NCBI RefSeq assembly: GCF_025717065.2
Contig: NZ_JAOVZO020000023.1
Coordinates: forward strand, 310,001 to 374,000
Reading direction: 5' to 3'
Length of the DNA stretch: 64,000 nucleotides
Origin: Tahibacter soli
Lineage (GTDB): Bacteria > Pseudomonadota > Gammaproteobacteria > Xanthomonadales > Rhodanobacteraceae
This document shows, one piece after another, positions 16,451-57,235 of the stretch. The notes beneath the pieces are model-generated. The model did no database searches, was not told the origin of the DNA, and saw nothing but the letters and a program-made list of their open reading frames with translations. A program made the translations under genes and the position numbers. Within the stretch, counting starts at the first letter, position 1, and each line of letters starts with the position of its first letter.

Positions 16451-19400
16451 ATGCACTCGAACTACCGCCGCGATTTCATCGATCTCGTTCGTCTCGTCGA
16501 CGCCAGCGCCGCCGCGGATCCCGCGCGCATCGCGTTCACCTGGCTCGACTTTCCGACGCGCAACGGTCCGCGCGTCGAAGAAACTCTCGATCGGCGACGT
16601 GCGCGAACGCGCCGCCGCGCTCGCGTCGCGACTGCGCGGCGCGCAGGGCGAACGCATGCTGCTGACGTTGCGGCCCGGCCTCGACTTCGTCGTCGCGTTT
16701 CTCGCGTGCCTGGAAGCCGGCGTCGTCGCGGTGCCGGTGCCCGTGCCGCGCCAGGGCCTGGGCGTCGAGCGCGTCGAGGCGATCCTGCGCGACAGCGGTG
16801 CGCGCTACGCGCTGTCCACGCGCGCCGCGATTGACACGATCTCGGCGCAGATCGGCGCGCCGGACCTGACGTGGATCGCGCTCGACGCCGACCCCGATGC
16901 CGAACCGCGGCCGCGCCTTCCGCCGCGCGCGTACGGCCGCGACGATCTGGCGCTCCTGCAGTACAGCTCGGGCTCCACCGGCGCGCCGAAGGGCGTGATG
17001 ATCAGCCACGGCAACCTCCTGCACCAGGCCGACCTCCTGTTCGACGAAACCGGCGCGCGTCCCGGCGACGTCTGGGCCGCGTGGCTGCCGACGTACCACG
17101 ACATGGGCCTCATCTCCGCCGTGGTCGCGCCGCTCGCCAAAGACCTGCATAGCGTCATGCTCGCGCCGGAGGCGTTCATCCTGCGTCCGTCGCGCTGGCT
17201 GCGCGCGCTCGGCGAATTCGGCGCGTCGTGCTGCGCGTCGCCGAACTTCGCGTACGAGCTGTGCGCGCGCAAGGTGGGCGACGACGAACTCGACGACGTC
17301 GACCTGTCGAGGCTGCGCTACGCGGTCAGCGGCGCCGAACCGGTGCGCGCCGCGACGATCGACCGCTTCGCGCAGCGCTTCGCGCGCTGGGGTTTCGCGC
17401 GCGACGCGTTCTATCCCGCCTATGGTCTCGCCGAGGCGACGCTGCTCGTCACGGGCCGCGGCGCCGACGTCGCCGTCGGCCACTACGACGGCGACACGCT
17501 CGCCGGCGGCTGCGTCGTCGTGCCGGTCGACGCGGCGCACGAACGTGCGACGGCGCTCGTCTCGTCCGGCGCGCCGCGCGGCGGCAACCGCGTGCGCATC
17601 GTCGATCCCGATACGCTAGCGGCGCTGCCGGAGCGGCAGATCGGCGAAATCTGGGTCGCCGGCGACGGCGTCGGCCTCGGCTACTGGGGCGCCGATGCCG
17701 AGCGCGCCGCCGCATTCGGCGCGCGCATCGACGGCGACGACGACGCGTACCTGCGTACCGGCGATCTCGGCTTTCTGCACGGCGGCGAGCTGTACGTGCG
17801 CGGCCGGTTGAAAGATCTCATCGTCATTCACGGCGCGAATCACTACGCGCCCGACATCGAACAGACCGTCGAGGCGAGCCACCCGTCGCTCGCGCCGTCG
17901 GGCGGCGCGGCGTTCGGCGTCGACATCGACGACGAAGAGCGCCTCGTCGTGGTCCACGAACTCGAGCGCGGACACGCAACGCCGGACGATGCCGAACTCG
18001 CGGCGCTCGCGGCGTCGATCCGCCACAACGTGACGCAGCGCCACCAGGTGTCGCCGTATGCCGTGGTGCTGCTCGCGGGCGGCCTGCCGAAAACGTCGAG
18101 CGGCAAGGTGCGCCGGGCCGAATGCCGAGCGCGCTGGCTCGCCGGCGCGTTCAAGCCGCTCGCGACGCTGCTGCAGACCGACGCGTCCGCGCCGGCGCCG
18201 GCCGACGACGATCCGGCCAGCCGCGCGATGCGCCGCCGCCTCGACTGCGAGCTGTGGCTGACGCGCCGCATCGCCGCGCGCCTGGGCATCGGCGAGGAGA
18301 GGCTCGGCCTCGACGATTCGCTGCGGCCGCTCACGCTCGACGGCGAGGCGACGACCGCGGTGCTGCAGGAGATCAAGGCCGAATACGGCCTGCTCGTGCC
18401 GTTCACCGTGTTCATGAACTATCCGACGATACGCGCGCTCGCCGAGCTCATCGACGAATCGATCGAACCCGAACGCGCCGACGCGCCGCTGCATGGCGGG
18501 CGCCTGAGCGCCGAAGAACTCGCGAACGTCAATGACGCGGCGCCGGCCGCCAACGACGAGCCGATCGCGATCATCGGCATGGCGTGCCGCTTCCCGGCTG
18601 CGGACGGGCCGCGCGAATTCTGGAAAAACCTGTGCGAAGGCGTCGACGCGGTCGACGACGTGCCGGCCGAACGCTGGGACGGCGACGCGCTGTACGATCC
18701 CAATCCGCTGGCGCTCGGCAAGATGAACACCAAGCGCGGCGGATTCCTGAAAAATGTAGAAATGTTCGATAATCGCTTTTTCGGCATCGTGGCGCGCGAA
18801 GCCGTGCGCATGGACCCCGCGCACCGGTTGCTGCTGGAGCTGAGCTGGGAAGTGTTCGAAGACGCCGGCATCCTGCCGCCGACGCTGTCCGGCGCGAATG
18901 TCGGCGTGTACATCGGCATTTCCGGCAGCGACTACGCGCAGCTGCAGTTCGGCGACGATACGTTGTCCGATCCGTATGCCGGCGTCGGCTGCGCGCTGAC
19001 GAATTCGGCCAGCCGCATCTCGCACTTCCACAACCTGCGCGGTCCGGCGCTGGCGATCGATACGGCGTGCTCGTCGTCGCTGAGCGCCGTGCACCTCGGC
19101 TGCTCGGCGCTCAAGTCGGGCGAATGCGAACTCGTGATCGCCGGCGGCGTGAACATCATCCTCGCGCCGAACGTCACGATGTCGCTGAGCAAGGCCGGCA
19201 TGATGGCGCCGGACGGCCGCTGCAAGACGTTCGACAAGAGCGCCGACGGCTACGTGCGCTCCGAAGGCGCCGGGCTCGTGCTGCTCAAGCCACTGGCGAA
19301 GGCGCTCGCCGACGGCGATCCGGTGTACGCCGTGATCCGCGGCTCTGCCTCGAACCAGGACGGCCGCAGCAGCGCGATTTCCGCCCCGAACGGCGAGGCG

Positions 19401-22400
19401 CAGCAGCGCGTGGTGCTCGCCGCGTGCACGCGCGCCGGCGTCCAGCCCGCGCAGCTCGACTACGTCGAAGCGCACGGCACCGGCACGGCGCTCGGCGATC
19501 CGATCGAGGTCAACGCGCTCGGCGAGGTGTTGAAAATCGGCGGCGACGATCAAAGCCGCTGCGCGATCGGCTCGGTCAAGACCAACATCGGCCACTGCGA
19601 ATCGGCGGCCGGCACCGCGAGCCTGATCAAGGCCGCGCTCGTGCTGTCGCACAAGCAGATTCCGCCGAGCCTCAACTTCGAGGAAGCCAACCCGCTGATT
19701 CCGTTCCACGACTACGGCGTCTACGTGCAGCGCGAACTGGCGCCGCTGCCGGCGCGCGACCGCGCGCGGCTCGCCGGGGTCAACAGCTTCGGCATCGGCG
19801 GCACGAACGTGCACATCGTGCTCGAGGAGTTCGACGCAAACGCCGCGCCCGCGCCGCAAGCCGCGCCGCGTCTGCACACGCTGGTGCTGAGCGGCAAGAA
19901 CGAAAAAGCGCTGAAGGCGAACGCGAAGGCGCTGGCCGACTATCTCACCGCGAACGTCGATACGGTGAATCTCACGGACGTCGCGCATACGCTCGCACGC
20001 CATCGCATGCACTTCGACTACCGCCTCGCCGCGGTCGGCGAGAGCGCGGCCGAAATCGCCGCGGCGATCGAATCGCACCTGCTCGTGACCTACCACGCCG
20101 ACGTCGCGTCGGGCTTCCACGTGCCGCAGCCCGAAGAACCGATCGAAGCCGCGTTCGTGTTCGCGGGCCAAGGCTCGCAGTGGTGGGCGATGGGCCGCCA
20201 GCTGTACGAGACCGAACCCGTCTACCGCGCCGAAGTCGAGCGCTGCGACGCGGCCATGCGCCGGCATACCGGCTGGTCGCTGATCGACGTGCTGCTCGCC
20301 GACGAAGCCGATTCGCTGCTCGGCGAAACCGAATACGCGCAGCCCGCGTTCTTCGCGCTGCAGTGCGGCGTCGCGGCGATGCTCGCGTCGTGGGGCGTCA
20401 AGCCGCGCGCCGCGGTCGGCCACAGCTTCGGCGAGGTCGCAGCGGCGTACGTCGCCGGCGCGCTCGAATTCGAGGACGCGTGCCGCCTGATCGCGATCCG
20501 CGCGCGCCTGATGCAGCGCGCGAAGGGCAACGGGCGCATGGTCAGCGTCGAGATGCCGCGCGCGGCGCTCGCCGCCGAAATCGCGCCCTACGGCGACGCG
20601 CTGTCGATCGCGGCTTCCAACAGCCCCGGCACGACCGTCGTGTCGGGCACGCACGAGGCGCTCGACAAGCTGCTGTTCGACATCAAGCAGCGCGGCGTGT
20701 CGACGGTCGAACTCGGCCTCGACTACGCGTTCCACAGCGTGCAGATGGAACAGTCGGCGCTCGATCTCCAGGCCGCGCTGTCCGACCTCGTCGCGCGCGA
20801 GCCGCGCATCGCGCTGGCCTCGACCGTCAAGGGCGACTGGACGGAAGCGGGCGAGACGCTCGGCGCCGCCTACTGGGCCGACAACATCCGCAACGAAGTG
20901 CGCTTCGCCAGCGCGATCGAAGCGATGGGGCGCCGCGGCATTCGTCTGTTCGTCGAAATCGGCGCGAACCCGGTGCTGTCCGGGGCGATGTCGCGTACGC
21001 TCAAGGGCATCAGCGTCAAGGGCACGGTGCTGCCGTCGCTCGTGCGCGACGTCGACGATGCGCGCGCGCTGCGCCGCTGCGCCGGCGCGCTGCACGCGGC
21101 CGGCAGCCGCGTCGATTTCGACGCGCTCGCGCCGCGCGGCCGCTTCGTGCGCAACCTGCCCAAGTACGCGTGGGATCGCCAGCGCTACTGGCTCGACGCG
21201 CCGCATCACGAATCGCGCAAGCGCGTCAGCACGCATCCGCTCGTGACCATCCGCATGCCGGTCGCGCAGCCGACGTGGGTGTCGCGTCTCGACATCACGA
21301 CCAATCCGTTCCTCGCGGCGCTGCGCGCCCGCGGACAGACGCGCCTCGGCAACGGCCTGTTCGTCGAACTCGCGTTCGAGGCGGTGGCCGGCGTCGCCGG
21401 CACCGGCGCGTTCGGGCGGCGCGAACTGTTCGGGCTGACGTTCGGCGCGCCGCTGCGCGACGTCGACGAAAACAACCTGCCGGCGCTGCAGACGAACGTC
21501 GCGACCGAGGGCGGCCGGCGCCGCGTGCGCGTGCTCGCCCAGGCCGACGAATCGCAGGGCCGTGCCGAATCGTGGCAGCCCGTGCTCGACGTCGTCGCGC
21601 TGACCGCCGGCGTCGCGCGCCGGCCCGAAAGCCCGCCGCTCGCCACGTTGCGCGCGCGCTTCGCGCAGACGTGGGGCGGGGCCGAAATCTACCGCAAGCT
21701 CGGCGAGGTCGGCATCGAGTACAACACGGCCGCGCAGGTCGCGACCGATGTGTCGATCGCCGACGGCGCGTGTCTTCTCGCCTTGCGCGTCGCCGACATG
21801 CTGCGCGCTGACGCCGGCCGCTACCACCTGCATCCGCTCGTGTTCGAAGCGATGGAGCAGGCGTGCCGCCTCGCCGCCGGCAGCGGCGCGGCGCACGCGG
21901 TGCTGCGCTGCGTGCGCCGCCTGCGCGTGTTCGGCCTCGCCGGCGACGCGGCCTACGCCTACGCGGTGCTGCGCGATGCCGACGCCGGCGATGTCGCGCG
22001 CGCCGACGTGTGGATCCTCGACGCCGAAGGCGAGGCGGTCGCGGTCGGCGAGGGCCTGTGCTTTGCCGACGCGCAAACCGAACAAAGCGACGAATACAGT
22101 ATTCCGACCGACATCGACCGCTGGCGCTACGACGTCGAATGGGTGCCGTCGGCGCTGCCCGAGACGGCCGCGTCGAGCGAGGCGGGCCGCTGGCTCGTGT
22201 TCGCCGACGGCCGCGGCGCCGGCGACGCGCTCGCGCGCTTCCTCGGCGAGCAGGGCCACGAATGCGTCGTCGCGCGCGCCGGCGATGCGTATCGCCGCAG
22301 CGGGCTCGCGGCCGAACTGTCGCCGCAGGCCGGCCACGAGGACATCGAACGCCTGCTGCGCGAAACGTTCGTCGAACCGGGCATCGCGTGCCGCGGCGTC

Positions 22401-25028
22401 GTGCACCTTTGGAGCCTCGACGCGACGCCGATGCACGCGACCACGGCGGCGACGATCGCCGACGGCTACGCGGCCGGCGTCGTCAGCGCGATCGCGACGG
22501 TGCGGGCGCTCTCGTCGGTCGACCTTGCGAAGGCGCCGCGCCTGTGGCTCGTCACGGCCGGCGCGCAGCCGGTCGAAGACGACGGCGCGCCGCTCGAAGT
22601 CGCGCAGTCGCTCGTGTGGGGCTGCGCCAAGAGCGTCGTGCTCGAACACGCCGAACTGCGCTGCTGCCGCATCGACCTCGGCGCGCTCGCGAGCGTCGAC
22701 GAAGTCGCCGCGCTGTGCCGCGAGGTGGCGGCCGACGCGCTCGACGACCAGATCGGCCTGCGCGGCGATCGCCGCTACATCGCGCGCCTGCGCTATCAGC
22801 TCGATCCCGCCCGCGACGGTTCCGCCGTCGCCGCCGCATCGCGCGCGCTGCGCTACGAATTCGCCGGCGAGCCGGCGTCGCTCGTCGCGATCGACCGCCG
22901 CCGCCGCGGCCCGGCCGCGGGCGAAGTCGAGATTCGCATCGATGTGGCCGCGCTGCCGGCGCTCGCCGTCCGTGAGCCGCGTACCGCGCAATGCGTCGGC
23001 CGCGTGCTGCGCGTGGGCGCCGACGTCGAAGGCATCGACGTCGGCCGGCGCGTGATCTGTCTCGACGCGGGCCCGCTCGACACGCATCGCGTGGTCGCCG
23101 CGGCGTCCGTCGCCGTGCTGCCCGACGCGCTCGCGCCGGAAGTCGCCGCGGCGTCGGCGCGCGCCTATCTCGAAGCCGTGTTCGCGCTGCGCGACATGGC
23201 CCACGTCGCCCATGGCGATCGCGTACTGCTGCGCCTCGGCGACGATCCCGCGCAGCTTGCGGCGGTGCGCGTCGCACGGTGGCTCGGCGCGCGCGTGTTC
23301 GTCGCGGCGCCGGCGTCGCTGCACGCGTCGCTCGCCGCGCTCAAGATCGCGCACGCGTTCGACGAAGCCGATCCGTCGGCATGGCTCGACGTGGCGAGCC
23401 TCACCGAAGGCCGCGGCGTCGATGCGCTCGTCAACTACGCGGGCGAGTTCGATACGTCGGCCTGCGCGAGCCTGCTGCGCGCGTTCGGCCGGTGCGTCGA
23501 TCTTGCCGCCGCGGCCGATCCGGCCGAGCGCGGGCTGCGCGCGCCGCTGCCCGGCAACGCCTCGTACCTCGCACCGGACGTCGCGTGCTTCCTGCGCGAG
23601 CGGCCGGAGGAGGCCCGCGCGCTGCTCGACGAAGTCGCGACACGCCTGGCCGACGGTACGTTCGCGCCGGTCGAGCGCGAGACGGTCGATCTCGACGGCT
23701 ACGCCGATGCCGCCTACGGCAGCGGCGCCGACGTCGTGCTGCGGTTCGCGGCCGATGCCCACGACGGCGCGGCGAGCGGTCCGTATCGCGACGATGCGAC
23801 GTATCTGATCACCGGCGGCCTCGGCGGCCTGGGCCTGTACATCGCGCGCCGCCTCGTGCGCGACGGCGCGAAGCATCTGGTGCTGGTCGGCCGGCGCGCG
23901 CCGGGCCTCGCCGCGCTCGATACGATCGCCGAGATCTCGCAAGGCGGCGCGAACTGCGTCGTCAAGTCGGTCGACATGGCCGACGCCGACGCCGTGCGGC
24001 AGATGCTGGCCGACATCCGCGCGACGATGCCGCCGCTCGCCGGCGTCATCCACGCCGCGGGCATCCTCGACAACGGACTGATCGTGCAGATGGACGCGCG
24101 CCAGACGACGTCGGTGATGCCGGCGAAGGTCGACGGCGCGTGGAACCTGCACACGCACACCGTCGACGACGCGCTCGATTTCTTCGTGATGTTCTCCTCG
24201 CTCGCGTCGTTCATCGGTTCGCCCGGACAGTCGAACTACGCCGCGGCGAACGCGTTTCTCGAAGCGCTCGCCGAGCATCGCCGCCGCAGCGGCCAGCCGG
24301 GTCTCGCGATCGCGTGGGGGCCGTGGGCCGAAGCGGGCATGGCGGCCGACGTGCACAACCTGCAGCGCCTCGCGCAGCACGGCATGGGCATGATCCTGCC
24401 CGAGCCGGGCCTCGACCTGCTCGAAGACCTCGTCGCCGGCCGCGTCGGCGGTGCGGTCGGCGCGCTGCCGATGAACTGGGCGGCGTGGGGCAAGACGCGC
24501 GGCTACGCGGGACAAACGCCGTATTTCGCCGGTCTCGTGCCGCAGCAGTCGCTGCACGCGGGCGGCGGCGGCAAGATCACCGCGGCGTCGCTCGCCGGAA
24601 AACCGGTGCAGGCAAGCCTCGACCTTCTGCACGGCGCGATCCTGCGCGCGGTGTGCCAGTCGCTGATGCTCGATGCCGACGGCGTCGATCTCGACGTGCC
24701 GCTGACCGCGATCGGCCTCGACTCGATCGTATCGCTCGAACTGAAGGACCGCATCGAGTCGACGATCGACGTCGTCGTGCGCACGAACGCGCTCGTCGCC
24801 GGCAAGAGCATCCGCAGCCTCGCGCAGCAGTTCTTCGACGACCTCACGGCGAACGCGGCGGCCGCCGCGGCACCGCCGGCGGCCGTGGCGCAAGCGCCGG
24901 GCGCGGAACTCCTCGAACGGCTCGACGACCTGTCGCAAGCCGAGATCGAGGCCATGCTCGCCGAACTCTCCGACGGCGCGCCGGCGAATGCCGCAACGGC
25001 CGACGAGCGCGAGCCGCGTCCGACCTGA
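16451..25028 (+). CDS. Hybrid FAAL-PKS: FAAL, ACP-like, KS, AT, DH-like, ER-like, KR, ACP (apparent frameshift near 16,582)
   Basis: This enzyme activates a fatty acid as acyl-AMP and elongates it by one C2 unit. The start is ATG 16451 with AGGGGG ahead; a 1-base shift at the AAA of 16581-16583 joins it to the main frame, which stays open to 25028 (2,809 residues from GTG 16599). Numbered from that GTG: FAAL 1-545 (YSSGSTGAPKG, YHDMGLI), ACP-like 555-640 with Gly582 where the phosphopantetheine Ser should be, KS 653-1080 (Cys824 in DTACSSS, EAHGTGT, KTNIGH), AT 1183-1480 (GHSFGEV; YAFH, probably malonyl), DH-like 1546-1830 lacking the catalytic His (Asn1569), ER-like 2083-2357 lacking the GGVG motif, KR 2398-2590 (TGGLGGLG, NYAAAN), ACP with Ser2709. 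A beta-hydroxyacyl product is inferred. The C terminus (LSQAEIEAMLAEL) looks like a docking helix. Confidence 0.9.
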
Positions 25029-25084
25029 TGCACGAACGGCGGCCCTTCGCGGCCGCCGCCTCCGACCGATTCGAGGATGCGCCC

Positions 25085-26803: not shown

Positions 26804-27574
26804 ATGCAGTCGATCCATCGGCAAGGGCGCGCGCTGCGCGTGATCCGTCGCGCTCCCGGCGCGCGCGTGCGGCTGTTCTGCTTTCCGTACGCGGGTTCGG
26901 GGCCGTCGATCTTCAACGACTGGCCGGCGCTGATGTCCGACGCGGTCGAGCTCGTCGGCGTCGTCTATCCCGGCCGCGAGTGCCGGGCCGGCGAGCCGCT
27001 CTCGCGCGACCTGGGCGAACTCGCGCAGACGCTCGTCGACGAGATCGCCGAACGCGACGACCTGCCGTTCGCGTTCTTCGGACACAGCATGGGCGCGTAC
27101 GTCGGCTTCGAAGTGGCGCGCCGCCTGGCGCCGCGCGCGCAGCGACCGCAGCATCTGTTTCTGTCGGCGGCCGGCGCGCCGCACCTGCCCGAGCCGTGCC
27201 GCATCCACGATCTGCCGAGCCGCGAATTCTTCAAGGCGCTGGTGCGCCTCAACGGGTTTCCGGCCGAGGTGCTCAAGGAGACCGAACTCGTGCGCTACGC
27301 GCTGCCGATCCTGCGCGCCGACTTCACCGCGTGCGAAACCTATCGCTTTCGCGCCGACGCACCGAGCCGCTGCCCGATGACCGTGTTCGGCGGCAGCCAC
27401 GACATCCGCGTCGACCGCCATCGCCTGGAAGCGTGGCGGCAGCTCGCGTCGCTGTCGTTCTCGCTGCGCGTTTTCGACGGCGGGCATTTCTACCTGCGCG
27501 AGCGCAAGGCCGAGCTCATCGGCTGCATGCGGCCGGAACTTGCGCGCCTGGGCCAGGGACGCGAGGTCGCATGA
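26804..27574 (+). CDS. Type II thioesterase
   Basis: A 256-residue stand-alone alpha/beta hydrolase of the editing thioesterase family found in NRPS/PKS clusters. It begins the domain with RLFCFPYAGSGPSIFNDW, has the nucleophile Ser95 in FGHSMGAY and a late His in DGGHFYL. It would release wrongly primed or stalled acyl groups from carrier domains. A GGGGGAGGGG ribosome-binding site precedes the ATG. Its stop overlaps the start of the first NRPS gene (ATGA), so the two are translationally coupled. Confidence 0.95.
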   Translation: MQSIHRQGRALRVIRRAPGARVRLFCFPYAGSGPSIFNDWPALMSDAVELVGVVYPGRECRAGEPLSRDLGELAQTLVDEIAERDDLPFAFFGHSMGAYVGFEVARRLAPRAQRPQHLFLSAAGAPHLPEPCRIHDLPSREFFKALVRLNGFPAEVLKETELVRYALPILRADFTACETYRFRADAPSRCPMTVFGGSHDIRVDRHRLEAWRQLASLSFSLRVFDGGHFYLRERKAELIGCMRPELARLGQGREVA

Positions 27575-46700: not shown

Positions 46701-49700
46701 GCGCTGCGCGCGACACAGCCGTCGTTCGACGCCGAGCCGTACGTGGAACCGGCGACGCCGACGCAGCGGCTCGTCGCGCAGACGTGGGCCGACGTGCTCG
46801 GCGACGCGCTCGGCGGCCGCGCGGTCGGCGCGAACGACAATTTCTTCCGGCTCGGCGGCCATTCGCTGCTCGCCACGCGCGTGGTGTCGCGGCTGTCGGC
46901 CGCGCTCGGCGCCGAGCTGCCGCTGCAGGCGCTGTTCGAAGCCGGCAGCGTCGCCGCGCTCGCCGACGGCATCGACGCGCGGCGCTGGAACGATCAGATG
47001 TCGGTCGCGCCGCCGGTGCTGCCGCAGCTGCGCAGCGGCGACGACACCGACACGTTCGTGCAGTCGCACGCGCAGCAGCGCCTGTGGTTTCTGCAGCAGC
47101 TCGACCCGGCGTCGGCCGCGTACAACGTGCACTCGCTGCACGCGCTGCGCGGCGCGCTCGATCCGGCCGCGCTGCAGCGCAGCCTCGACGCGATGGTCGA
47201 GCGCCACGAGATTCTGCGTACGCGTTTCGCGATGGAGCCGAACGGACGCCTCGTGCAGATCGTCGACCGCCGCCGCACGATCGGCATCGCGCTGACGAAT
47301 CTCGAATCGCTGCCGGCCGACGTCGCGCGCGAGAAGGCGCGCGCGCTCGTCGACGCCGATATGGACCTGCCGTTCGACCTGCAGCAGGGGCCGCTCGTGC
47401 GCGTCCATCTGCTGCGCTTCGGCCCGCACCAGCATGCGCTCGTCGTCGGCATGCACCACATCGTCACCGACGCGTGGTCGATGGAGGTGTTCCTGCGCGA
47501 GTTCTCGCAGCTCTACACCGGCTTCGCGCGCGGCGTGCCGGCCGCGCTCGATCCGCTGCCGGTGCAGTACGCCGACTTCGCCGCGTGGCAGGAAGACTGG
47601 ATGAACTTCGGCGTGCTCGAGGAGCTGCTGTTCTACTGGCAGGAACGCCTGCGCGACGCGCCGCCGGAACTCGCGCTCGTGACCGACCGGCCGAAGAACC
47701 TCAAGCAGACCCCGTCCGGCGGCGTCGTGACGTTCGGTCTCGACGCATCGACGCTCGCCGCGGTCAAGGCGTTCGCGCACCGCGCCGGCGCCACGCCGTT
47801 CATGGTGCTGCTCGCGGGCTTCAAGGCGCTCCTGTCGCGCTACAGCGACCAGCACGACATCGTGCTCGGCGTGCCGGTGGCCAACCGCACGCGGCAGGAG
47901 CTCGAGCCGCTCGTCGGCTTCTTCGTCAACACGCTGGTGATGCGTACCGACCTTTCGGGCGACCCGTCGTTCGACGAGGCCGTGGGGCGCGTGCGCGACA
48001 CCGCGATCGGCGCGTTCGCGCACCAGAACCTGCCGCTCGAGCGCCTGATCGAACGGCTCGGCCACGAGCGCCGCTGGCAGCGCTCGCCGCTGTTCCGGTC
48101 GATGTTCGTGCTGCAGAACGCGCCGCATTCGCCGCTGCGCCTGGACGGCATCGACATCGAACCGATGGCGCTGACGCCGAAGGCGTCGAAGTTCGACCTG
48201 AGCCTGTTCCTGCAGGAACAGCAGGACCGCCTGCTCGGCCTCTTCGAATACAGCACCGATCTCTTCGATCGCGCGACGATCGAGCGCATGGTCGAGCACT
48301 ACCGCCTGCTGCTCGACGCGGCGCTGCTGTCGCCGCGGACGCGCCTGTCGGCGCTGCCGCTCGTGACGGTCGACGAGCGCGAGCAACTGATCGCCTGGGG
48401 TCGCGGCGCGATGCCGGCGGCGGAGGCCGACGACGTGGTCGGCCGCTTCCGCGCGCATGCCGCGCGCGCGCCGCAGGCGCTCGCGATCGCCGACGGCGCG
48501 CGCAGCCTGACGTACGCCGAACTCGACGCGCGTACCGACGGTCTCGCGCACGCACTCGCTCGGCAGGGACTGCAGCCGGGCCAGGTGGCGGCGCTCGCGC
48601 TGCCGCGCTCGATCGAAACGGCCGTGGCGGCGCTCGCGGTGCTCAAGGCGGGCGGCGCGTTCCTGCCGCTCGACATCGCCAATCCGCCAGAGCGCCTCGC
48701 CTACATTCTCGGCGACGCGCAGGTGTCGATGGTGCTCGTGCGCGAGGGCGACACGGTCGATCTCGGCGATGCCGCGTCGCGCGTCGCGCGCGTCGCCGTC
48801 GACGCGGCGCACGAAGCTGCGCCGGGCGCCGTGCCGGCGCACCGCATCGCCGCGAACGATCTCGCGTATGTCATCTACACGTCGGGTTCGACCGGAAGGC
48901 CCAAGGGCGTGGAGGTCGAGCACGGCGCGCTCGCCAACCTCGTGGCGTGGCAGACGGCGACCTTCGACATCGACGCGGCCGACCGCTGCTCGCAGCTCGC
49001 GGGCGCCGCGTTCGACGCGACGCAGCTCGAATGGTGGGCGGCGCTCGCGAACGGCGGCAGCCTGCACATCGCGGACGATGCGACGCGCGCGTCGCCGACC
49101 GCGCTGGTCGCATGGCTCGCGGCCTCGCGCATCACGCTCGCGTTCATGCCGACGCCGCTCGCCGAAGCGACGTTCGACGAGGCGTGGCCGGCCGACACGG
49201 CGCTGCGCGCGCTCCTGACCGGCGGCGACGTGCTGTACCGCGCGCCGCCCGCGGGCCTGCCGTTCGCGCTGTACAACGCCTACGGCCCGACCGAGGCGAC
49301 CGTCGTCACGACGTGCGCGCCGATCGCGCCGGCCGGCGACAACGACGCCCGACCGACCATCGGACGTCCGATCGACGGCATGCTCGTGCGCGTGCTCGAC
49401 GACGCCGGACAGCCGGTGCCGGTCGGCATCGTCGGCGAGCTGTACGTCGGCGGCGCGGGCATCGCGCGCGGCTATCGCAACCAGCCGGCGCTGACCGCCG
49501 AACGCTTCGTCGCCGATCCGGTCGACACGCACGCGCGCACGCGGCTGTACCGCACCGGCGATCGCGTGCGCTATCGCCAGGACGGCAGCCTCGACTTCGT
49601 CGGCCGCGCCGACGACCAGGTCAAGATTCGCGGCTTCCGCATCGAACTGGGCGAGGTGGAATCGGCGCTGCGCCGTCTCGACGGCGTCAGGCAGGCCGCG

Positions 49701-51152
49701 GTCGTCGCACGCGAGGACGTGCCGGGCGACAAGCGCCTCGTCGGCTACGTCGTCGTCGACGCCGATGCCGGCGCGATCGACGGCGATACGCTCGCCGCGT
49801 CGCTGCGCACGCAGCTGCCGGACTACATGGTGCCGGCCGCGATCGTGACGCTCGACGAGCTGCCGCTCGCGCCGAGCGGCAAGATCGACCGGCGCGCGCT
49901 GCCGAAGCCGGCGATCGAGCGCTATGTCGACACCGACGATCTCGTGCCGCCGCGCGACGACGTCGAGCGCGAACTCGTCGCGATGTGGGAGGCGCTGCTC
50001 GACTACAAGCCGGCCGGCATCAACCACAACTTCTTCCGCTACGGCGGCCACTCGCTCAACGCGCTGTCGCTGCGTTCGCGCATCGAGGCGATGTGGGGCG
50101 TGCGCATCGACCTCGTCGCGCTGTTCGAAGACGGCACGGTCGCGCACCTCGCGCGGCACGTGCGCGCGCTGCGCGACGCGGCCGGCACGGCCGACGCGCC
50201 GGCCGCCGCGGCGGCGCCGCCGGCGAGCGGGCCGAGCTGGTTCGCGCGCCTCATGCAGCGGCTCGGTATTTTCCGCAACGTGGCGCGCGCGCCGCGCTTC
50301 AAGCCCGAGGAAATCGCGCGCACCGTCAGCGTCATCGAACCGGGCGGCACGGGGCCGGCGCTGTTCCTCGCGCATTCGCCCGGCGGCGGCGTGCTGTGCT
50401 ACGCCGAGCTCGCCCGGCAGCTCAAGGGGCAGATGCCGCTGTACGGCCTGCGCGCGGCCGACGCGGCGCGCGCGCCCGGCACGGTCGAGGCGCTCGCGGG
50501 GCTGTACGTGCAGGCGATGCGCAGCGTGCAGCCGCAGGGGCCGTACGCGCTGTGCGGCTGGTCGCTCGGCGGCGTCGTGGCGTTCGAGATGGCGCGGCAG
50601 CTGCGAGAGGCCGGCGAGGACGTCGCGGGCGTCACGCTGCTCGACAGCTATCCGTTCGATCCGCGGCTCGATTCGGCCGACCTCGACGACAACCAGGTGC
50701 TCGACGCGTTCGTGCGCGATCTCGTGCTGTCGAGCGGCGGCAAGCTCGCGCCCGACTGGTTCCTCGATGCCGACACCGGCACCGACGCCGATCCGCGCAT
50801 GCAGGCGCTCGCGGCGCTCCAGTCGCTGGGCGTGCTGCCGGCCGACTTCTCGCGCGAGGAGTTCGCCGCGCGCATCGCCGCGTACAGGGCCGCGTACAAG
50901 GCGTGGACGCGCTACGCGCCGAAGCCGTACGCGGGCCGCGTCGATCTGGCGATGGCGATGGATTCGCTCGATCTGCTCAAGCGCAATCCGACGCAGGCGT
51001 GGGGCGCCTACGCGGCCGGCGGCATGGCGATCGACGTGGTGCCGGGCGATCACTATTCGATTCTGCGCACGCCGGCGGCGCGCCAGATCGGCGACGGGCT
51101 CGCAGCGTCGCATCGCGCGCGCGCAACGCCGCGCGCCGCGGCGGCCGAGTGA
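43767..51152 (+). CDS. NRPS 3: C-A-T-C-A-T-TE (two hydrophobic residues predicted)
   Basis: 2,461 residues. C1 has HHIVADA (171), A1 the pocket residues D-A-L-F-F-G-D-V-V(-K), T1 GGHSLLA (1,029). C2 has HHIVTDA (1,229), A2 D-A-L-F-L-G-A-V-V(-K), T2 GGHSLNA (2,093). Both codes resemble Leu-type aliphatic pockets, but neither matches one I know exactly. The terminal thioesterase (about 2,160-2,440) has Ser2266 in GWSLGG, an Asp in LLDSYP and a His in PGDHYS. It should release the chain as a linear acid or as a macrolactone through a hydroxyl such as the beta-OH of the lipid. The gene follows NRPS 2 by 12 bp with AGGGAA as ribosome-binding site. Confidence 0.95.
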   Translation: MRNQGLTPEQERLIALTLAKQGIARDAQDAIAPRPAGEAAAVSHAQQRLWFLERLHPGSPAYNVPVALRTRGAVDAAVLARALNAIVARHEALRTTFVERDGEPCAIVHETLNLDVPRIDISTLDATARAAEIARLAAADATGLFDLARGPLLRLCIVDAGDDGAIVLFCIHHIVADARSLRVFLHELKTLYRAFADDRESPLAPLSIQYADYAAWQRRRLDGELYARQADYWKDKLADAPAATALPYDRSRRPAAGANGAHASIALPARVREGIGRLAADTGSTAFMVCLAGFKVLLARYGDASDIIVGTPVENRGREQLEPLIGFFVNTLALRTDLSGDPSFRDIVAAVRASALDAFDHQDLPFEKVVEEVGVAREFGETPLIRCMFSFASESGAADDGPRFLETATETPTVAKFDLTVVAVEHDNGLRLDLQYRSDLFDRATIDRLVGHYARLLEGALDKPDTVLSALPLASDAERETVLRWGEGAPAPRARDVCARFEAHAARDPHAIALVDGARRVSYGELDHAANRVAHALRRQGVGRGALVALAMERSVDMAIGMLAALKAGGAYLPLDTASPPQRLAFVLDDAKAAFVLTRAADEVDLDGTIVPRIALDTLDADLPTSAPERDVAPEDTVYVIYTSGSTGRPKGVEVPQRALANVVDWHVRTLAVAAGDACSQLAGAAFDAAQLEWWGALAAGATLHIVDDATRASPRALIAWLATHGIAVAFMPTPLAHAALDERWPAATRLRALFVGGDALHRTPSAALPFTLYNDYGPTEAAVVTTCAAFAPSDAAADITIGRPIDGAVVRVLDTAGNPAPIGVIGELCIGGAGVARGYRNHPELTAARFGIDPFDAAGAARLYRTGDRARWRGDGTLDFAGRSDDQVKIRGYRIELGEVQAALLAQPGVRQAAVVARGEGIERRLDAYVAAAPGASLDHEQVLAGARRVLPSYMVPAALRVLDQLPYTRNGKLDLAALRATQPSFDAEPYVEPATPTQRLVAQTWADVLGDALGGRAVGANDNFFRLGGHSLLATRVVSRLSAALGAELPLQALFEAGSVAALADGIDARRWNDQMSVAPPVLPQLRSGDDTDTFVQSHAQQRLWFLQQLDPASAAYNVHSLHALRGALDPAALQRSLDAMVERHEILRTRFAMEPNGRLVQIVDRRRTIGIALTNLESLPADVAREKARALVDADMDLPFDLQQGPLVRVHLLRFGPHQHALVVGMHHIVTDAWSMEVFLREFSQLYTGFARGVPAALDPLPVQYADFAAWQEDWMNFGVLEELLFYWQERLRDAPPELALVTDRPKNLKQTPSGGVVTFGLDASTLAAVKAFAHRAGATPFMVLLAGFKALLSRYSDQHDIVLGVPVANRTRQELEPLVGFFVNTLVMRTDLSGDPSFDEAVGRVRDTAIGAFAHQNLPLERLIERLGHERRWQRSPLFRSMFVLQNAPHSPLRLDGIDIEPMALTPKASKFDLSLFLQEQQDRLLGLFEYSTDLFDRATIERMVEHYRLLLDAALLSPRTRLSALPLVTVDEREQLIAWGRGAMPAAEADDVVGRFRAHAARAPQALAIADGARSLTYAELDARTDGLAHALARQGLQPGQVAALALPRSIETAVAALAVLKAGGAFLPLDIANPPERLAYILGDAQVSMVLVREGDTVDLGDAASRVARVAVDAAHEAAPGAVPAHRIAANDLAYVIYTSGSTGRPKGVEVEHGALANLVAWQTATFDIDAADRCSQLAGAAFDATQLEWWAALANGGSLHIADDATRASPTALVAWLAASRITLAFMPTPLAEATFDEAWPADTALRALLTGGDVLYRAPPAGLPFALYNAYGPTEATVVTTCAPIAPAGDNDARPTIGRPIDGMLVRVLDDAGQPVPVGIVGELYVGGAGIARGYRNQPALTAERFVADPVDTHARTRLYRTGDRVRYRQDGSLDFVGRADDQVKIRGFRIELGEVESALRRLDGVRQAAVVAREDVPGDKRLVGYVVVDADAGAIDGDTLAASLRTQLPDYMVPAAIVTLDELPLAPSGKIDRRALPKPAIERYVDTDDLVPPRDDVERELVAMWEALLDYKPAGINHNFFRYGGHSLNALSLRSRIEAMWGVRIDLVALFEDGTVAHLARHVRALRDAAGTADAPAAAAAPPASGPSWFARLMQRLGIFRNVARAPRFKPEEIARTVSVIEPGGTGPALFLAHSPGGGVLCYAELARQLKGQMPLYGLRAADAARAPGTVEALAGLYVQAMRSVQPQGPYALCGWSLGGVVAFEMARQLREAGEDVAGVTLLDSYPFDPRLDSADLDDNQVLDAFVRDLVLSSGGKLAPDWFLDADTGTDADPRMQALAALQSLGVLPADFSREEFAARIAAYRAAYKAWTRYAPKPYAGRVDLAMAMDSLDLLKRNPTQAWGAYAAGGMAIDVVPGDHYSILRTPAARQIGDGLAASHRARATPRAAAAE

Positions 51153-51201: not shown

Positions 51202-51945
51202 ATGAGCGCGGTCAGCAAGCCCTGGTTCGCCGAAGACGGCACGCCGTTCAACGGCACCGAACCGTTCTATTTCAACACCGACGACTTCGCGTGGGTGAAG
51301 GAGGTCGAGTCGCAGTGGGAAACGATTCGCGACGAGCTGTACGCGCTCGTCGAGGACGACACCGCGCTGACGCCGTACGCCAACCGCATGATGACGTCGC
51401 GGCCGAACCAGTGGAAAACGTTCGGCCTGATGTTCTGGAGCGTCAAGCACGAGGCGAACTGCCGCCGCGCGCCCAAGACGTGGGCGATCCTGAAGAACGT
51501 GCCGAACATCTGCGCGATCTCGTTCAATCTGCTGGAGCCAAACACCACGATCAAGCCGCACAACGGCGACACCAACGCGATCATCCGCTGCCACATGGGC
51601 CTTGAAGTGCCGGCAGCGGCGCCACGCTGCGCGTTTCGCGTCGGCAGCGAGATCCGCAGCTGGGAAGACGGCAAGTTTCTGATGTTCTGCGACGCGCACG
51701 AGCACACCGCCTGGAACAACACCGAGCGGCGGCGCTACATCCTCGTCGTCGACGTGATGCGTCCGGAATACGTCGCGCTCAAGCGCCGCGTATCGAGCCG
51801 CGTGCTTGCGTCCATTTCGCTACAAATCTACTACCAGCGTTTCGCCTGGCTCAAGCGCTACGCGAGCGGCCGTTTCGGCAAGGCCGCCGTGACCGGGCTC
51901 CTGCGAGCCCTGAGCTATCTGCCGCTGTCGAGGAGCGCCGCATGA
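51202..51945 (+). CDS. Asp/Asn beta-hydroxylase-fold dioxygenase 1 (AspH/LpxO family)
   Basis: 247 residues of the Fe(II)/2-oxoglutarate family PF05118. The likely iron ligands are the His of RCHMGL (about 131) and the His of HEHTAWN (about 167); the Arg of RRYILVVD would hold 2-oxoglutarate. Members hydroxylate Asp/Asn side chains or, as in LpxO, a fatty acyl chain. This is the first of three paralogues in the cluster. Since Gln/Glu modules dominate and no Asp/Asn module is predicted, it may hydroxylate Gln/Glu residues or the acyl tail. It starts 49 bp after NRPS 3 with a GGGGAG ribosome-binding site. Confidence 0.88.
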   Translation: MSAVSKPWFAEDGTPFNGTEPFYFNTDDFAWVKEVESQWETIRDELYALVEDDTALTPYANRMMTSRPNQWKTFGLMFWSVKHEANCRRAPKTWAILKNVPNICAISFNLLEPNTTIKPHNGDTNAIIRCHMGLEVPAAAPRCAFRVGSEIRSWEDGKFLMFCDAHEHTAWNNTERRRYILVVDVMRPEYVALKRRVSSRVLASISLQIYYQRFAWLKRYASGRFGKAAVTGLLRALSYLPLSRSAA

Positions 51946-52787
51946 ACCGCATCGTCGAAACCGCGTCCGCCTCGTCGGTGGCGCCCGCCGCATCCGCATC
52001 GTCGCCGTCGTGGGGCGAGCGCTTCAAGTCGCTGTTCCGGCGCCGGCCGCGCCCGTGGCTGTCCGACAGCTCGGTGCCGTATCCGGCCGGCATGCCGTTC
52101 CTGTACGACCCGAGCCAGTATTCGTTCGTGCCGCACGTGGAGGCGAACTGGCGGACGATCCGCGCCGAGCTCCTGGCCGCGCTGAACATCGCCGACAGCG
52201 GCCTCGAGCCCTACAAGGACATCGCCAAGACCGACAAGAAGGCCGCGTGGCGCACCGCGGGCCTCATGTACTGGACGATGAAGTCGAAAGAGAACATCGC
52301 GCGCTTTCCGAAAACCTGGGAAATCTTCAAGGACATCCCGAACCTCACGTCGTGCTCGATCCATCTTCTCGAACCGCACTCGACGATCAAGCCGCACATC
52401 GGCGACACCGACGCGATGCTGCGCTGTCACATGGGCCTCGTCGTGCCCGCGCCGCTGCCGCGCTGCGGCTTTCGCGTGGGCAACGAGATGACGTCGTGGG
52501 AGGAGGGCAAGGTATTCATCTTCAACGACGCGCGCGAGCACACCGCGTGGAACAACACCGACCAGAACCGCTACGTGATCTCGTTCGACGTGATCCTGCC
52601 GCAGTACGCCGGAATCCGGCATTGGATCGCGGCCCAGGTGCTCGGCAAGATCTACGTCGAGGTGATGTACCAGCACAAGGCGTGGCTGCGACCGTATGCC
52701 AAGGTTAAGTGGATCAATACCTTGTTGCACAAAGTGTCTAAGCTGATCTGGTACGGCAAGGTGCGCCTGCGCGCGCGGCTGCCGTGA
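51942..52787 (+). CDS. Asp/Asn beta-hydroxylase-fold dioxygenase 2 (AspH/LpxO family)
   Basis: 281 residues, overlapping the previous stop by 4 bp (ATGA). It keeps the family core: IKPHIGDTDAMLRCHMGL, then TSWEEGK and REHTAWNNTDQNRYVISFD, so the metal and 2-oxoglutarate ligands appear intact. It is longer than its two siblings by a Ser/Ala-rich N-terminal extension (about 1-40) and a basic C terminus, and it is the most diverged copy (KTDKKAAWRTAG where the others have MTSRPNQWKT). A different target position on the same molecule is plausible. Confidence 0.88.
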   Translation: MNRIVETASASSVAPAASASSPSWGERFKSLFRRRPRPWLSDSSVPYPAGMPFLYDPSQYSFVPHVEANWRTIRAELLAALNIADSGLEPYKDIAKTDKKAAWRTAGLMYWTMKSKENIARFPKTWEIFKDIPNLTSCSIHLLEPHSTIKPHIGDTDAMLRCHMGLVVPAPLPRCGFRVGNEMTSWEEGKVFIFNDAREHTAWNNTDQNRYVISFDVILPQYAGIRHWIAAQVLGKIYVEVMYQHKAWLRPYAKVKWINTLLHKVSKLIWYGKVRLRARLP

Positions 52788-52827: not shown

Positions 52828-53673
52828 ATGTACGACGAACGACTGACGCCGGACGGCGAGACGATCGCCAGCAAGAAGGACTACGAGCTGTTCCCGATCG
52901 AAGGCAACGGCCTCGTGAAGCTCTTTCGAGCACACGTGCCGATCGAGCGGATCGAACGCGAGGCGCAGACGTCGCGGCTCGTGCATGCCGGGGGGCTGCC
53001 GAGCCTGCGCGTCGACCGCGCGCCGGTGCGCCGGCGCGACGGCCGCGTCGGCATCGTGTTCGAACGCGTGCCGGGCGAGCGGCTCTCGGCGCTGTACAGC
53101 CGGCATCCGGGCCGCCTGTTCGGGCTGACCGACCGCATCGCGCAGCTGCACCGCCACATCCACGAAACGCCGGCCGTAGAAGGCTTGCCATCGCAGAAAA
53201 TGCGGCTCGGCGAGGACGTGCTGTCGGCCGGACGATTGTCGCTCGATGCGCGCCGCACGCTCTATCGCACGCTCGAAGCGCTGCCGGACGGCGAGCGCGT
53301 GTGCCACGGCAATCTGCATCCGAGCCACGTCCTCGTCGACGGCGACACGACGATCGCGACGGAGTGGGGCGACGCCGTCAACGGCAATCCGCTCGCCGAC
53401 GTCGCGCGCACTGCGATCATCCTGCGCTATCCGGTCGCGCAGTCGGCCGACTACGGCTCGCGCGCCGCGCGCATCTACTGCCTGCTGCGCAGCGCCGTGT
53501 ACGTGCGGCGCTACTTCGCGGGCGACCGTTCGCGTCTGCCGGAGCTGCGCCGCTGGCTCGTCGTATGCGCTGCGGCGAGGCTCAGGGAAGAACTGCCGCC
53601 CGAATCCTCGCGCCGCATCGCAAGGCTCATCGCCGTCGCACTGCCGCGCCTGCGCGGCGCGCTGCCGGCCTGA
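52828..53673 (+). CDS. Degenerate APH-fold protein (probable pseudokinase)
   Basis: 281 residues with the overall pattern of the kinase at 7,473, including DGERVCHG, PLADVARTAIILRY and a conserved C-terminal helical part. The catalytic loop reads HGNLHPSHVL instead of HGDxxxxN, so the catalytic Asp is Asn and the metal-binding Asn is His. The later DW motif is EW (ATEWGDA). Phosphotransfer is therefore unlikely by normal chemistry; a binding, scaffolding or altered catalytic role is possible. It lies between the second and third hydroxylase genes, transcribed with them, with a GGGGG ribosome-binding site. Confidence 0.8.
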   Translation: MYDERLTPDGETIASKKDYELFPIEGNGLVKLFRAHVPIERIEREAQTSRLVHAGGLPSLRVDRAPVRRRDGRVGIVFERVPGERLSALYSRHPGRLFGLTDRIAQLHRHIHETPAVEGLPSQKMRLGEDVLSAGRLSLDARRTLYRTLEALPDGERVCHGNLHPSHVLVDGDTTIATEWGDAVNGNPLADVARTAIILRYPVAQSADYGSRAARIYCLLRSAVYVRRYFAGDRSRLPELRRWLVVCAAARLREELPPESSRRIARLIAVALPRLRGALPA

Positions 53674-53702
53674 CCGTCGTATCCACAACCCAGGTGCCCG
53701 AC

Positions 53703-54464
53703 ATGTCCAGCGTTCGATCCGAAATGTGGTTCGCCGACGACCCCGTGCCGTTTCGCGGCAGCGAGCCGTTCTTCTACGACACCGCGCAGTTCGCGTGGGT
53801 GCGCGAGGTGGAGGCGCAATGGACCGTGATTCGCGACGAGGTGCTCGCGGTGCTCGCGGCGCAGGAGGCGCAGCTCACGCCGTACATGAACGAGAAGATG
53901 ACGTCGCGGCCGAACCAGTGGAAGACGCTCGGCCTCATGTTCTGGACGCAGCGTTCCGTTGAAAATTGCGCGCTGTTTCCGAAATCGTGGGAGATCATCC
54001 GGAAGATTCCGCACCTGACCGCGGCGTCGTTCAACCTGCTCGAGGGCGATACGACGATCAAACCGCACATGGGCAACACGAATGCGATCATCCGGTGCCA
54101 CATGGGGCTCGTCGTGCCCGCGCCGGCACCGCGCTGCGCGTTTCGCGTCGGCACCGAAACGCGCAGCTGGGACGAGGGCAGGTTCCTGATGTTCTGCGAC
54201 GCGCACCAGCACACCGCGTGGAACAACACCGATGCCAAGCGCTACATCCTCGTCGTCGACGTGATGCGCCCCGAGTTCGCGCACGCGACGGTCGCGACGT
54301 CCAGCCGCGTGCTCGCCGCGATCTACCACGAAACGGCGTATCAGCGTAAACCGTGGCTCAAGCGCTGGTTCGGCGGCGCGCGCGGGCAGGCGTTCACGCT
54401 CGCGCTGTATCGCCTGGCGTATCGCTACGCGCTCGGGCGCGACCGCCTGTTCGGCCGCGCGTGA
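53703..54464 (+). CDS. Asp/Asn beta-hydroxylase-fold dioxygenase 3 (AspH/LpxO family)
   Basis: 253 residues, closely similar to copy 1 through MTSRPNQWKTLGLMFW, IKPHMGNTNAIIRCHMGL and HQHTAWNNTDAKRYILVVDV, with all expected metal and cosubstrate residues. It probably arose by duplication of copy 1 and was later separated from it by copy 2 and the pseudokinase. It precedes the P450 gene by 16 bp. Substrate as for the other copies: a residue of the assembled peptide, a carrier-bound amino acid or the acyl chain. Confidence 0.88.
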   Translation: MSSVRSEMWFADDPVPFRGSEPFFYDTAQFAWVREVEAQWTVIRDEVLAVLAAQEAQLTPYMNEKMTSRPNQWKTLGLMFWTQRSVENCALFPKSWEIIRKIPHLTAASFNLLEGDTTIKPHMGNTNAIIRCHMGLVVPAPAPRCAFRVGTETRSWDEGRFLMFCDAHQHTAWNNTDAKRYILVVDVMRPEFAHATVATSSRVLAAIYHETAYQRKPWLKRWFGGARGQAFTLALYRLAYRYALGRDRLFGRA

Positions 54465-54480
54465 CCCACGGAGCCAGTCG

Positions 54481-55749: not shown

Positions 55750-55756
55750 GGTCGTT

Positions 55757-57235
55757 ATGACGCAAAATGCACAAAGCGCATCCGAGCGCCAGTTCGCCGC
55801 CGCGGCCGATCCCGACGGCGTGTTCATCCGGCAGATGGACGCGCTGCTCGCGCGCGCGTCGACAGCGCCGCGCGCGCGTCGCGACTGGCGCGCGCAGCCG
55901 CTGCGACCGCTGCTGCTCGGCTACACCGGCAAAGGCAACGTCGGCGCCGACATCCGGGTGCGCGAAATGGTGCGCCAGATGCAGACGGTGTTCGGCCACG
56001 CCGGCTTCGATCCGCGCATCGTCGTGATGGGCAAGGTGCCGCTCGATCCGGTGCTCGATGCGCTCGCCAAGACGCCGTTCGACGGCTACTTTCCCGATTT
56101 CATCGCCCCGCGACTGGCCGGCCTCGACGGCGTGATCGCCTGCGAAGGGTCGATGTTCACGTCGAAATTCAGCGATATTCTCAGCGCGACCTTCGCCGGC
56201 GCGATCGGCCTTTCGGCGCGGCAGGGCCGCCTCGCGGTCGCCTACGGCGCCGAATCGGGGCGCATGAGCGAGCGCCTGCAGGCCTTCGTCGCGCGCGCGT
56301 GCGACCGCGGCCTGATCGTCGCGCGCAGCCGCACCACGCACGATCAGCTGCGTGCGCTCGGCGTGCCGTCGCGGCTCGGCGCCGACACGGCGTGGACGTT
56401 CGATCCCGGCGACGACGCGCTCGCCGGCGCGCGCGACACGCTGCGCGCGCAAGGCTGGGACGGTCGCAAGCCGCTCGCCGTCGTCTGCCCGATGAATCCG
56501 TTCTGCTGGCCGATCCGCGTCGACTTCGCCAAGGCGCGCGAACTGGCCGAAGCGGGCCTGCACGCCGATCTGCACTACGACGGCGTGCTGTTCCACACGA
56601 CGTCCGAGGCCGCCGACGCCGCGTTTGCCGGCTATCTCGACACGCTGGCCGCGACGATCGCGCATCTGCGCGCGACCGGCCGGTTTCCGGTGCTCGTCGC
56701 GATGGAAAAACTCGACGGGCGCACCTGCGCGCGCCTCAACGCGATCGTGCGCGAACCGCTGCCGGCGTTCGTCAGCGGCGAGTGGCCGGCCGCGTCGATC
56801 GTCGCGCTGCTGCACAACGCGTCGCTCGTGGTCACGTCGCGTTTCCACGCCGCGGTGCTGTCGCTGAACGCCGGCGTGACGACCATCGGCATCGCGCTCG
56901 ACGAGCGTATCCGCAATCTCTTCACCGAGAACGGACTGCGCGACTGGTTCTTCGCGTGCGACGACGCGCGGCTGACCGACGCGCTGATCGGCGCGGTGGA
57001 CGCGTCGGCCGGCGCCGACCTGCGCGCGGCGTGCGACGGTCTCGTCGCACGGCAGATCCAGGCCATGGGTTCGATGGGGCTGCGGCTGCACGACGAAGTG
57101 GTGCGGGTGTTCCCGGACTTTCCGCCGTCGCCGCTGCCGCGGCAGTGGCGGGCGTTTCTGCCGCCGCTCTCGGCGCGGCTGCAACGCGTGCTCGACGAGG
57201 CCGACGCGCGCGCGGCGGGCGAGCGCGCGGCCTGA
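55757..57235 (+). CDS. Polysaccharide pyruvyl transferase-family protein
   Basis: 492 residues. The core carries family features: PLLLGYTGKGNVGADIRVRE at the start, SMFTSKFSDILS, an SRTTHDQLRALG segment and, near residue 355, SLVVTSRFHAAVLSLNAGV, the conserved SxRFHxxxxA block. Family members add pyruvate ketals to sugars or act as glycosyltransferase-fold proteins. It is the last gene of the block, 7 bp after the P450. In a lipopeptide setting it could modify a hydroxylated product, though a role on a surface glycan cannot be excluded. Its stop is only 5 bp from the convergent secreted-protein stop. Confidence 0.8.
   Translation: MTQNAQSASERQFAAAADPDGVFIRQMDALLARASTAPRARRDWRAQPLRPLLLGYTGKGNVGADIRVREMVRQMQTVFGHAGFDPRIVVMGKVPLDPVLDALAKTPFDGYFPDFIAPRLAGLDGVIACEGSMFTSKFSDILSATFAGAIGLSARQGRLAVAYGAESGRMSERLQAFVARACDRGLIVARSRTTHDQLRALGVPSRLGADTAWTFDPGDDALAGARDTLRAQGWDGRKPLAVVCPMNPFCWPIRVDFAKARELAEAGLHADLHYDGVLFHTTSEAADAAFAGYLDTLAATIAHLRATGRFPVLVAMEKLDGRTCARLNAIVREPLPAFVSGEWPAASIVALLHNASLVVTSRFHAAVLSLNAGVTTIGIALDERIRNLFTENGLRDWFFACDDARLTDALIGAVDASAGADLRAACDGLVARQIQAMGSMGLRLHDEVVRVFPDFPPSPLPRQWRAFLPPLSARLQRVLDEADARAAGERAA

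Follow-up and report, generated by a model that had tools for sequence, protein, structure and literature searches.

We analysed a 64,000-nucleotide stretch of the Tahibacter soli genome (6.65 Mb in 23 contigs), labelled G000:C23:310001-374000 and called the window below. Positions 16451-57235 of the window hold a cluster in which a polyketide synthase (PKS) fused to a fatty acyl-AMP ligase (FAAL) is followed by nonribosomal peptide synthetases (NRPSs). It is a real lipopeptide cluster of a known kind and, judging from its genes and motifs, it is probably functional. What appears to be new here is the set of tail genes together with unusual PKS losses that are common to relatives. We propose, with a probability of about one half, that the cluster encodes a lipoheptapeptide assembly line whose AspH clade, CYP153-type cytochrome P450 (P450) and pyruvyl-transferase-family protein would act mainly on the fatty tail, oxidising and capping it. 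The architecture, motifs and homology are given by the sequence; from these we infer the order of the steps, the substrates, the tail as target and the product.

The cluster comprises twelve genes, all on the plus strand, and neighbours overlap or stand at most 49 bases apart, as the original prediction had described. The gene assignments are backed by Pfam and NCBIfam profile matches, which also bore out the FAAL-loading one-module PKS, the seven NRPS modules, the exporter, the editing thioesterase, the three AspH genes and the pyruvyl-transferase-family gene named in that prediction. The PKS gene (16451-25028) is followed by a cyclic-peptide export ATP-binding cassette (ABC) transporter (25028-26770; Pfam; 472 bits with TIGR01194, whose cut-off is 286.2) and a type II (editing) thioesterase (TEII; 26804-27574; PF00975, 157 bits). 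Three NRPS genes with condensation (C), adenylation (A) and thiolation (T) domains come next. N1 (27571-34002) reads C1-A1-T1-C2-A2-T2, N2 (33999-43754) has a TubC_N docking domain and three C-A-T modules with A3-A5, and N3 (43767-51152) reads C6-A6-T6-C7-A7-T7 with a terminal thioesterase (TE). This arrangement, a FAAL fused to an elongating PKS and then C-A-T modules and a TE, is that of a FAAL-PKS-NRPS assembly line. Behind N3 lie the AspH-fold hydroxylases AspH1 (51202-51945) and AspH2 (51942-52787), an APH-like protein (52828-53673), AspH3 (53703-54464), the P450 (54481-55749) and a divergent polysaccharide pyruvyl transferase family protein, PyrT (55757-57235). Seven of the 17 Condensation matches in the whole genome belong to this cluster and ten to a second one. 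The latter, a FAAL-NRPS cluster outside the window (G000:C23, about 406000-439000, minus strand), has its ten matches on three large open reading frames (ORFs) and carries dual-type C motifs.

The PKS was assigned from Pfam, motifs, reading frames and comparison with the two PKSs (G986a and G986b) of G986, a genome of the same order. Its domains are FAAL, acyl carrier protein (ACP), ketosynthase (KS), acyltransferase (AT), dehydratase (DH), enoylreductase (ER), ketoreductase (KR) and a last ACP. The motifs of the KS (DTACSS, AHGT, GH), AT (GHSFG, YAFH), KR (GGLGGLG) and last ACP (GLDSI) are intact. The DH and ER domains are present and lack their motifs, so a 3-hydroxyacyl chain is expected. 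The beta-hydroxyacyl group of the original prediction thus stands, but the reason is that DH and ER have lost their motifs, not that they are absent. The ACP behind the FAAL has no phosphopantetheine (Ppant) serine (LTLDGE, versus LGLDS in G005, a genome of the same family), and so no cognate ACP with this serine stands next to the FAAL; the rest of the genome was not searched for a free-standing ACP. Because the neighbouring ACP has no such serine, the acyl group would have to reach the KS directly or via another carrier. The desmamides are a published precedent: their FAAL, too, is part of a multidomain PKS in which an ACP ahead of the first PKS module has not been identified, and a beta-hydroxyacyl intermediate and an NRPS are likewise shared, but their architecture is another one and the available passages of that paper name no AspH or CYP153 (PMC11837247).

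The original prediction has the cluster run from 16451. The FAAL gene there is present, but its start is split between two frames: the frame of the ATG at 16451 holds only about the first 40 residues, and the remainder lies in the frame read from 16599. The matching FAAL region in G986 is a single frame, and the break near 16590 may be genuine or may come from a sequencing error. The G986a PKS (52.5% identity to the window over 2816 columns in one comparison, 53.8% in another) and the G986b PKS (44.9%) likewise lack the DH and ER motifs and keep those of KS, AT, KR and the last ACP. At the Ppant serine column, the first ACP has Gly in the window, Pro in G986a and Ala in G986b. In the PKS of a further genome, G309, Pfam gave no ACP match between FAAL and KS. 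Since the DH and ER losses, and less surely the ACP loss, are common to the G986 PKSs, they appear to be an old trait rather than local decay.

The A-domain codes were read by script and cover nine positions, with position 10 left out: A1, DTENVGTVS; A2, A4 and A5, DAQDVGVVD; A3, DAKDVGVVD; A6, DALFFGDVV; A7, DALFLGAVV. These codes agree with the predicted order X-Gln-Glu-Gln-Gln-aliphatic-aliphatic, except that Gln and Glu cannot be safely separated and X looks basic. Glu239 has been placed in Arg codes, and E stands at the same place in quoted Lys and Orn codes (PMC12283262). By its code, residue 1 is thus probably basic. The code DAQDLGVVDK has been reported for Glu as well as Gln (PMC12283262), so the "Gln" assignments are really Gln or Glu (Glx), and A2 to A5 are Glx-type. 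A literature search of open-access text with the window code strings turned up only the neighbour code DAQDLGVVD, in one paper. For the Leu-like codes of A6 and A7, we take DAWFLGNVVK to be a Leu code. This string is a common code in the Leu/Ile/Val group (PMC12283262). Together, the codes predict that the product is probably a lipoheptapeptide in the order 3-hydroxyacyl, basic residue, four Glx and two Leu-like residues. No separate epimerization (E) domains were found, with seven Condensation matches for seven A domains, and the C motifs of the window lack the DHxT/DNYS forms present in the second cluster of the same genome. For these two reasons, all residues are probably L.

The C domains of N2 carry an altered motif. 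C3-C5 read PHIASDG, PHIAADG and PHFAADG, that is PHxxxDG with the second His kept instead of the canonical HHxxxDG, and C1, C2, C6 and C7 retain HHxxxD. In a survey of 82 distinct C domains from the examined loci, to which the window contributed four HH and three PH forms, Pro at this position was found in none of the 75 domains from outside the window (66 HH, 9 without the pattern). We take the second His to be the catalytic one; as it is kept, C3-C5 are likely active. The variant is already known, since PHxxxDG is printed for Zmn19 of the zeamine system in the available text (PMC3547906). The modules themselves have a mixed history. Across about 1.35 kb, A2, A4 and A5 agree at 95-100% of DNA positions in every 150-base step; modules 2 and 4 are alike on through T, and module 5 carries another T domain. 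As proteins, C2 is only 36-38% identical to C3-C5, which are 71-76% identical among themselves. Such near-identical A DNA beside a divergent C2 points to recent exchange or conversion. A3 is a mosaic that differs from A2, A4 and A5 among the code positions only at 239.

We then turn to the tail genes. All three AspH proteins match PF05118, and H120, R129, H131, H168 and R178 are invariant across them and the AspH of G309. We take these residues to be the Fe and 2-oxoglutarate ligands, with roles from the ASPH numbering, which gives the proteins both the fold and the ligand set of this family. A model of AspH1 (mean pLDDT 66) matched human ASPH in Foldseek with an E value of 7.9e-14. In NCBIfam, AspH1-3 were nearer to the OlsC model (132-142 bits, cut-off 450) than to the LpxO model (59-91 bits, cut-off 500), both lipid hydroxylases, but far under both cut-offs, so that they are strict members of neither. 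In a tree, the window trio and the G309 protein split from 31 other AspH sequences at 100/98, and after the G986 and G1007 copies were added the split was 12 against 4 at 100/100; the AspH proteins form a clade of their own. AspH2 pairs with the third G986 copy, at the end of contig C3 (100/99), and AspH3 with the copy in the APH-AspH-P450 cassette of G986 (91/92; 67% identity). AspH1 is nearest to the second G986 copy (63%), at a fork that the tree did not resolve. It is likely that the three genes arose before the split and are not redundant.

CYP153 enzymes are terminal hydroxylases of alkanes and fatty acids. The best match of the P450 in the PDB was 3rwl, CYP153A7, at 433 bits, against 263 bits for the best named CYP125 row and 175 bits for CYP124 (best 60 of 286 matches, many of them without a CYP number). 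This agrees with the predicted CYP153-like assignment, as does Pfam with a P450, and the protein is 59% identical to the P450 of the G986 cassette. Among 80 of 178 P450 relatives, no AspH match at 1e-20 was found, and four matches to the PKS/NRPS queries were partial, at 25-29%. An APH kinase motif has a catalytic Asp (HGD), a metal-binding Asn and a later Asp. The APH-like protein (PF01636) reads HGNLHPSH and TEW at these places, without the catalytic residues, and is a probable pseudokinase rather than an APH kinase. The APH of the G986 cassette has part of the loss (HGN, no later Asp), the G309 and G1007 copies keep the catalytic residues, and a second G986 copy did not fit the pattern. PyrT matched PF04230 with 46 bits (E 8.7e-12; gathering threshold 25.3) and the CsaB model with 45.9 bits, below its cut-off of 213.1. 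A single-sequence model had a pLDDT of 36.6 and was unusable. No PyrT relative was found at E<=1e-15 in 338 other genomes of the class, nor among plasmids.

The original prediction had recognised no product, and nothing close was indeed found in the genus, family and plasmid searches. In the 8 genomes of the genus, own included, a P450 search at E 1e-40 gave no relative with more than 35% identity. In the family (233 genomes), the best-scoring AspH outside the cluster was 37% identical, and a FAAL match at E<=1e-80 was found in 18 genomes, own included. The FAAL loci of five of these (L145-L149) belong to other PKS/NRPS lines; in the nearest, G005, the FAAL-PKS front is 38.7% identical over 1537 columns and the TEII 43%, and there is no AspH match. 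Nothing close was found in 72,556 plasmids with AspH, PyrT, N3, APH and PKS queries and part of the N1/N2 DNA. Four contexts of AspH relatives among 95 plasmid records held no NRPS, and one adjoins phospholipid genes. The class, order and phylum searches were samples of 369, 398 and 398 genomes and returned, besides the own genome, G309 in the class (2/369), G986 and G1007 in the order (3/398) and none in the phylum (1/398). The AspH profile used for phylum and order contains the G309 protein and the window trio, whose own scores are therefore circular.

By sequence comparison the cluster is not unique: homologous, uncharacterised clusters occur in two genomes from its order, G986 and G1007. 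In G986a, one contig end carries PKS-ABC-TEII-N1 and another (C3) carries N3-TE and three AspH genes with P450 and APH, in the order of the window; we infer that the two ends belong together. Identity to the window is 54.6% for ABC, 57% for TEII and 46% for N1 over 1551 columns, and the A1 code is identical, but the module 3-5 region is missing and there is no PyrT match. The homologous cluster of G1007 is in fragments. The window, G986:C32 and G1007:C199 share the gene order APH-AspH-P450. G986b (C3, about 79450-105600) is a separate FAAL-PKS with four NRPS modules and one AspH, whose codes, read by eye, are DAENIGTVT, DAWFLGAVV, DLFNNALTY and DAWFLGAVV, none of Glx type. Two of its A domains look identical in the compared stretches. 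G309 has FAAL-KS-AT-KR-ACP-TE, AspH and APH, and its 33 kb gave no match to any of the three NRPS queries. Upstream of this FAAL-PKS on G309:C9, a class 3 lipase and eight ORFs of 206-1258 aa, none of which matched Pfam at 1e-5, stand in a row on the same strand. The original prediction had singled out the Gln/Glu core with three hydroxylases as the distinguishing combination. This was not supported, as the same AspH clade is found in G309, where no NRPS was found, and in G986b, which has no Glx code.

On the assembly line as we read it, the FAAL would activate a host fatty acid, the acyl group would pass to the KS directly or via another carrier, and a single malonyl extension, ketoreduced but not dehydrated, would give a 3-hydroxyacyl chain. 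C1 would join this chain to the probably basic residue, and Glx-Glx-Glx-Glx and two Leu-like residues would follow. The TE would release the product and the cyclic-peptide ABC transporter would export it, and the AspH enzymes, the CYP153 and the pyruvyl-transferase-family protein would mainly oxidise and cap the tail. As AspH stands next to a FAAL-PKS with no NRPS found in G309 and with no Glx module in G986b, it appears to track the acyl-making PKS and not the Gln/Glu core, and tail hydroxylation by AspH is favoured. By analogy, the CYP153 and the pyruvyl transferase would fit a tail target as well, with the chitinimines as precedent: there, a pyruvate acetal on a lipid-tail diol is the proposed work of the putative pyruvyl transferase ChtnH (PMC13291983).

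The AspH enzymes may instead beta-hydroxylate NRPS amino acids, either Glx or the basic first residue, with CYP153 alone acting on the tail; this is possible, at somewhat less than one chance in three. Some observations favour it and weigh against tail modification. Among solved structures, the AspH proteins come closest to Asp/Asn beta-hydroxylases, enzymes of amino acid side chains. In the window the AspH genes come immediately after the NRPS/TE, and four of the six relative loci (the C3 end and C3:104k of G986; C40 and C199 of G1007) likewise have them behind an NRPS. The A1 code DTENVGTVS is the same in the window and G986a, and the first code of G986b, read by eye, is similar; since all three open with an E239-type A1, residue 1 could be the shared target. 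Further points count against our own proposal. Only two loci, G309 and G986b, separate the tail from Glx, the latter by codes read by eye, and the number of AspH paralogues, three, fits no predicted tally of tail positions. Long branches that meet drew a warning from the tree program, a PyrT match is absent from the examined stretches of G986, G1007 and G309, and the all-L assignment depends on general motif rules. In G986a a Ser stands one residue before the Ppant column, which makes the ACP loss less sure there. Against an amino-acid target stand the two loci themselves, with no NRPS found in the 33 kb of G309 and no Glx-type module in G986b, and the NCBIfam scores, which favour lipid hydroxylase models, though under cut-off. 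In addition, beta-hydroxylation of NRPS aspartate has been assigned to TauD-type enzymes in the available parts of two reports (PMC11574851; PMC11451712). A siderophore, in which beta-hydroxylated acidic residues bind iron, is very improbable. Lipopeptide siderophores can bear beta-hydroxy-Asp (PMC7100376; PMC11574851, available text), but no Asp-type code is found among A1-A7, and none of the 23 ORFs scanned with Pfam, which are part of the window genes, matched a TonB receptor, an Orn hydroxylase or a TauD-type enzyme, and we rejected this candidate.

The frame break near 16590 and the losses in the PKS, APH and C motifs could also mean a decaying, silent cluster that has lost its function. 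We consider this unlikely. The window shares the DH and ER losses and, less surely, the ACP loss with G986a and G986b, and some of the APH loss with the G986 cassette, so these losses are old; C3-C5 keep the second His, which we take as catalytic, the other eleven genes are open, and the break may be a sequencing error. An assembly error in the near-identical modules, with a true Glx module number other than four, seems a shade less likely still. The identity of the A2, A4 and A5 DNA and the 23 contigs of the genome leave room for it, but the C3-C5 domains flank the copies and, at only 71-76% identity, help in placing them. Going further than tail modification by AspH, one may tentatively picture a FAAL-PKS lineage with a retired loading ACP, in which acyl-AMP passes directly to the KS and a dedicated AspH-fold clade hydroxylates the tethered or finished tail at several positions; here, CYP153 and the pyruvyl transferase would then make a pyruvate-acetal head group from a polyol tail. 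We would give this extended picture about one chance in four.

No characterised cluster matching most genes was found in the genome and plasmid searches or in open-access literature. The chitinimines and megapolipeptins are also hybrid lipopeptides for which a pyruvyl transferase is proposed to act on lipid-tail hydroxyls, but their tail system is PUFA-synthase-like, a FAAL is unmentioned in the main text, and the comparison is one of described roles (PMC13291983). Lipopeptide clusters of Lysobacter (plusbacin, tripropeptin, lysohexaenetides), a genus that is possibly close to this host, share NRPS and PKS/NRPS lines, and the available text refers to one hybrid that contains just one cis-AT PKS module, but dual C/E domains and TauD hydroxylases set the candidate plusbacin cluster apart (PMC11451712). 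In cyanobacterial FAAL-PKSs, the AMP-binding and KS parts match much of the query, with 39% identity in Leptolyngbya sp. NIES-3755 (AP017310.1), but identity is only 28-39% among the matches listed. An AFC-BC11-type cluster was rejected, since the available text mentions no C domains and lacks the word hydroxylase (PMC12186527), as was a bokeelamide-type cluster, where the hydroxylase described is of the TauD type (PMC11574851).

Beyond the limits of the original prediction, an ADOP permease (12489-14894) and a DarD/LolD-like ATPase (14958-15914), on the minus strand, are a possible extra export pair; the ADOP match is over its cut-off and the ATPase models are under theirs. An ADOP relative (39%) stands directly after an AspH pair in G1007:C40. 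Beside the permease and ATPase of the window, a sigma-54 response regulator, a histidine kinase and an HlyD-type protein lie in a row at 7850-12426 (plus strand), with possible roles in regulation and export. An ORF without a Pfam match (57241-58119, minus strand) lies directly after the last operon gene. Three 16S genes lie on G000:C17 and C16; the C16 copy scores lower (1552 versus 1602 bits) and therefore differs or is foreign.

A2 to A5, close relatives of Glx type among which a single domain departs from the others in its code, at position 239 alone (Q to K), offer a natural experiment on the choice between Gln and Glu. The shared change of the loading ACP makes it testable whether a FAAL can feed a KS without an ACP. 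If the AspH clade does act on the tail, part of PF05118 would gain a natural-product role in assembly-line fatty-tail hydroxylation, and genome miners should not assign such genes by default to amino-acid beta-hydroxylases.

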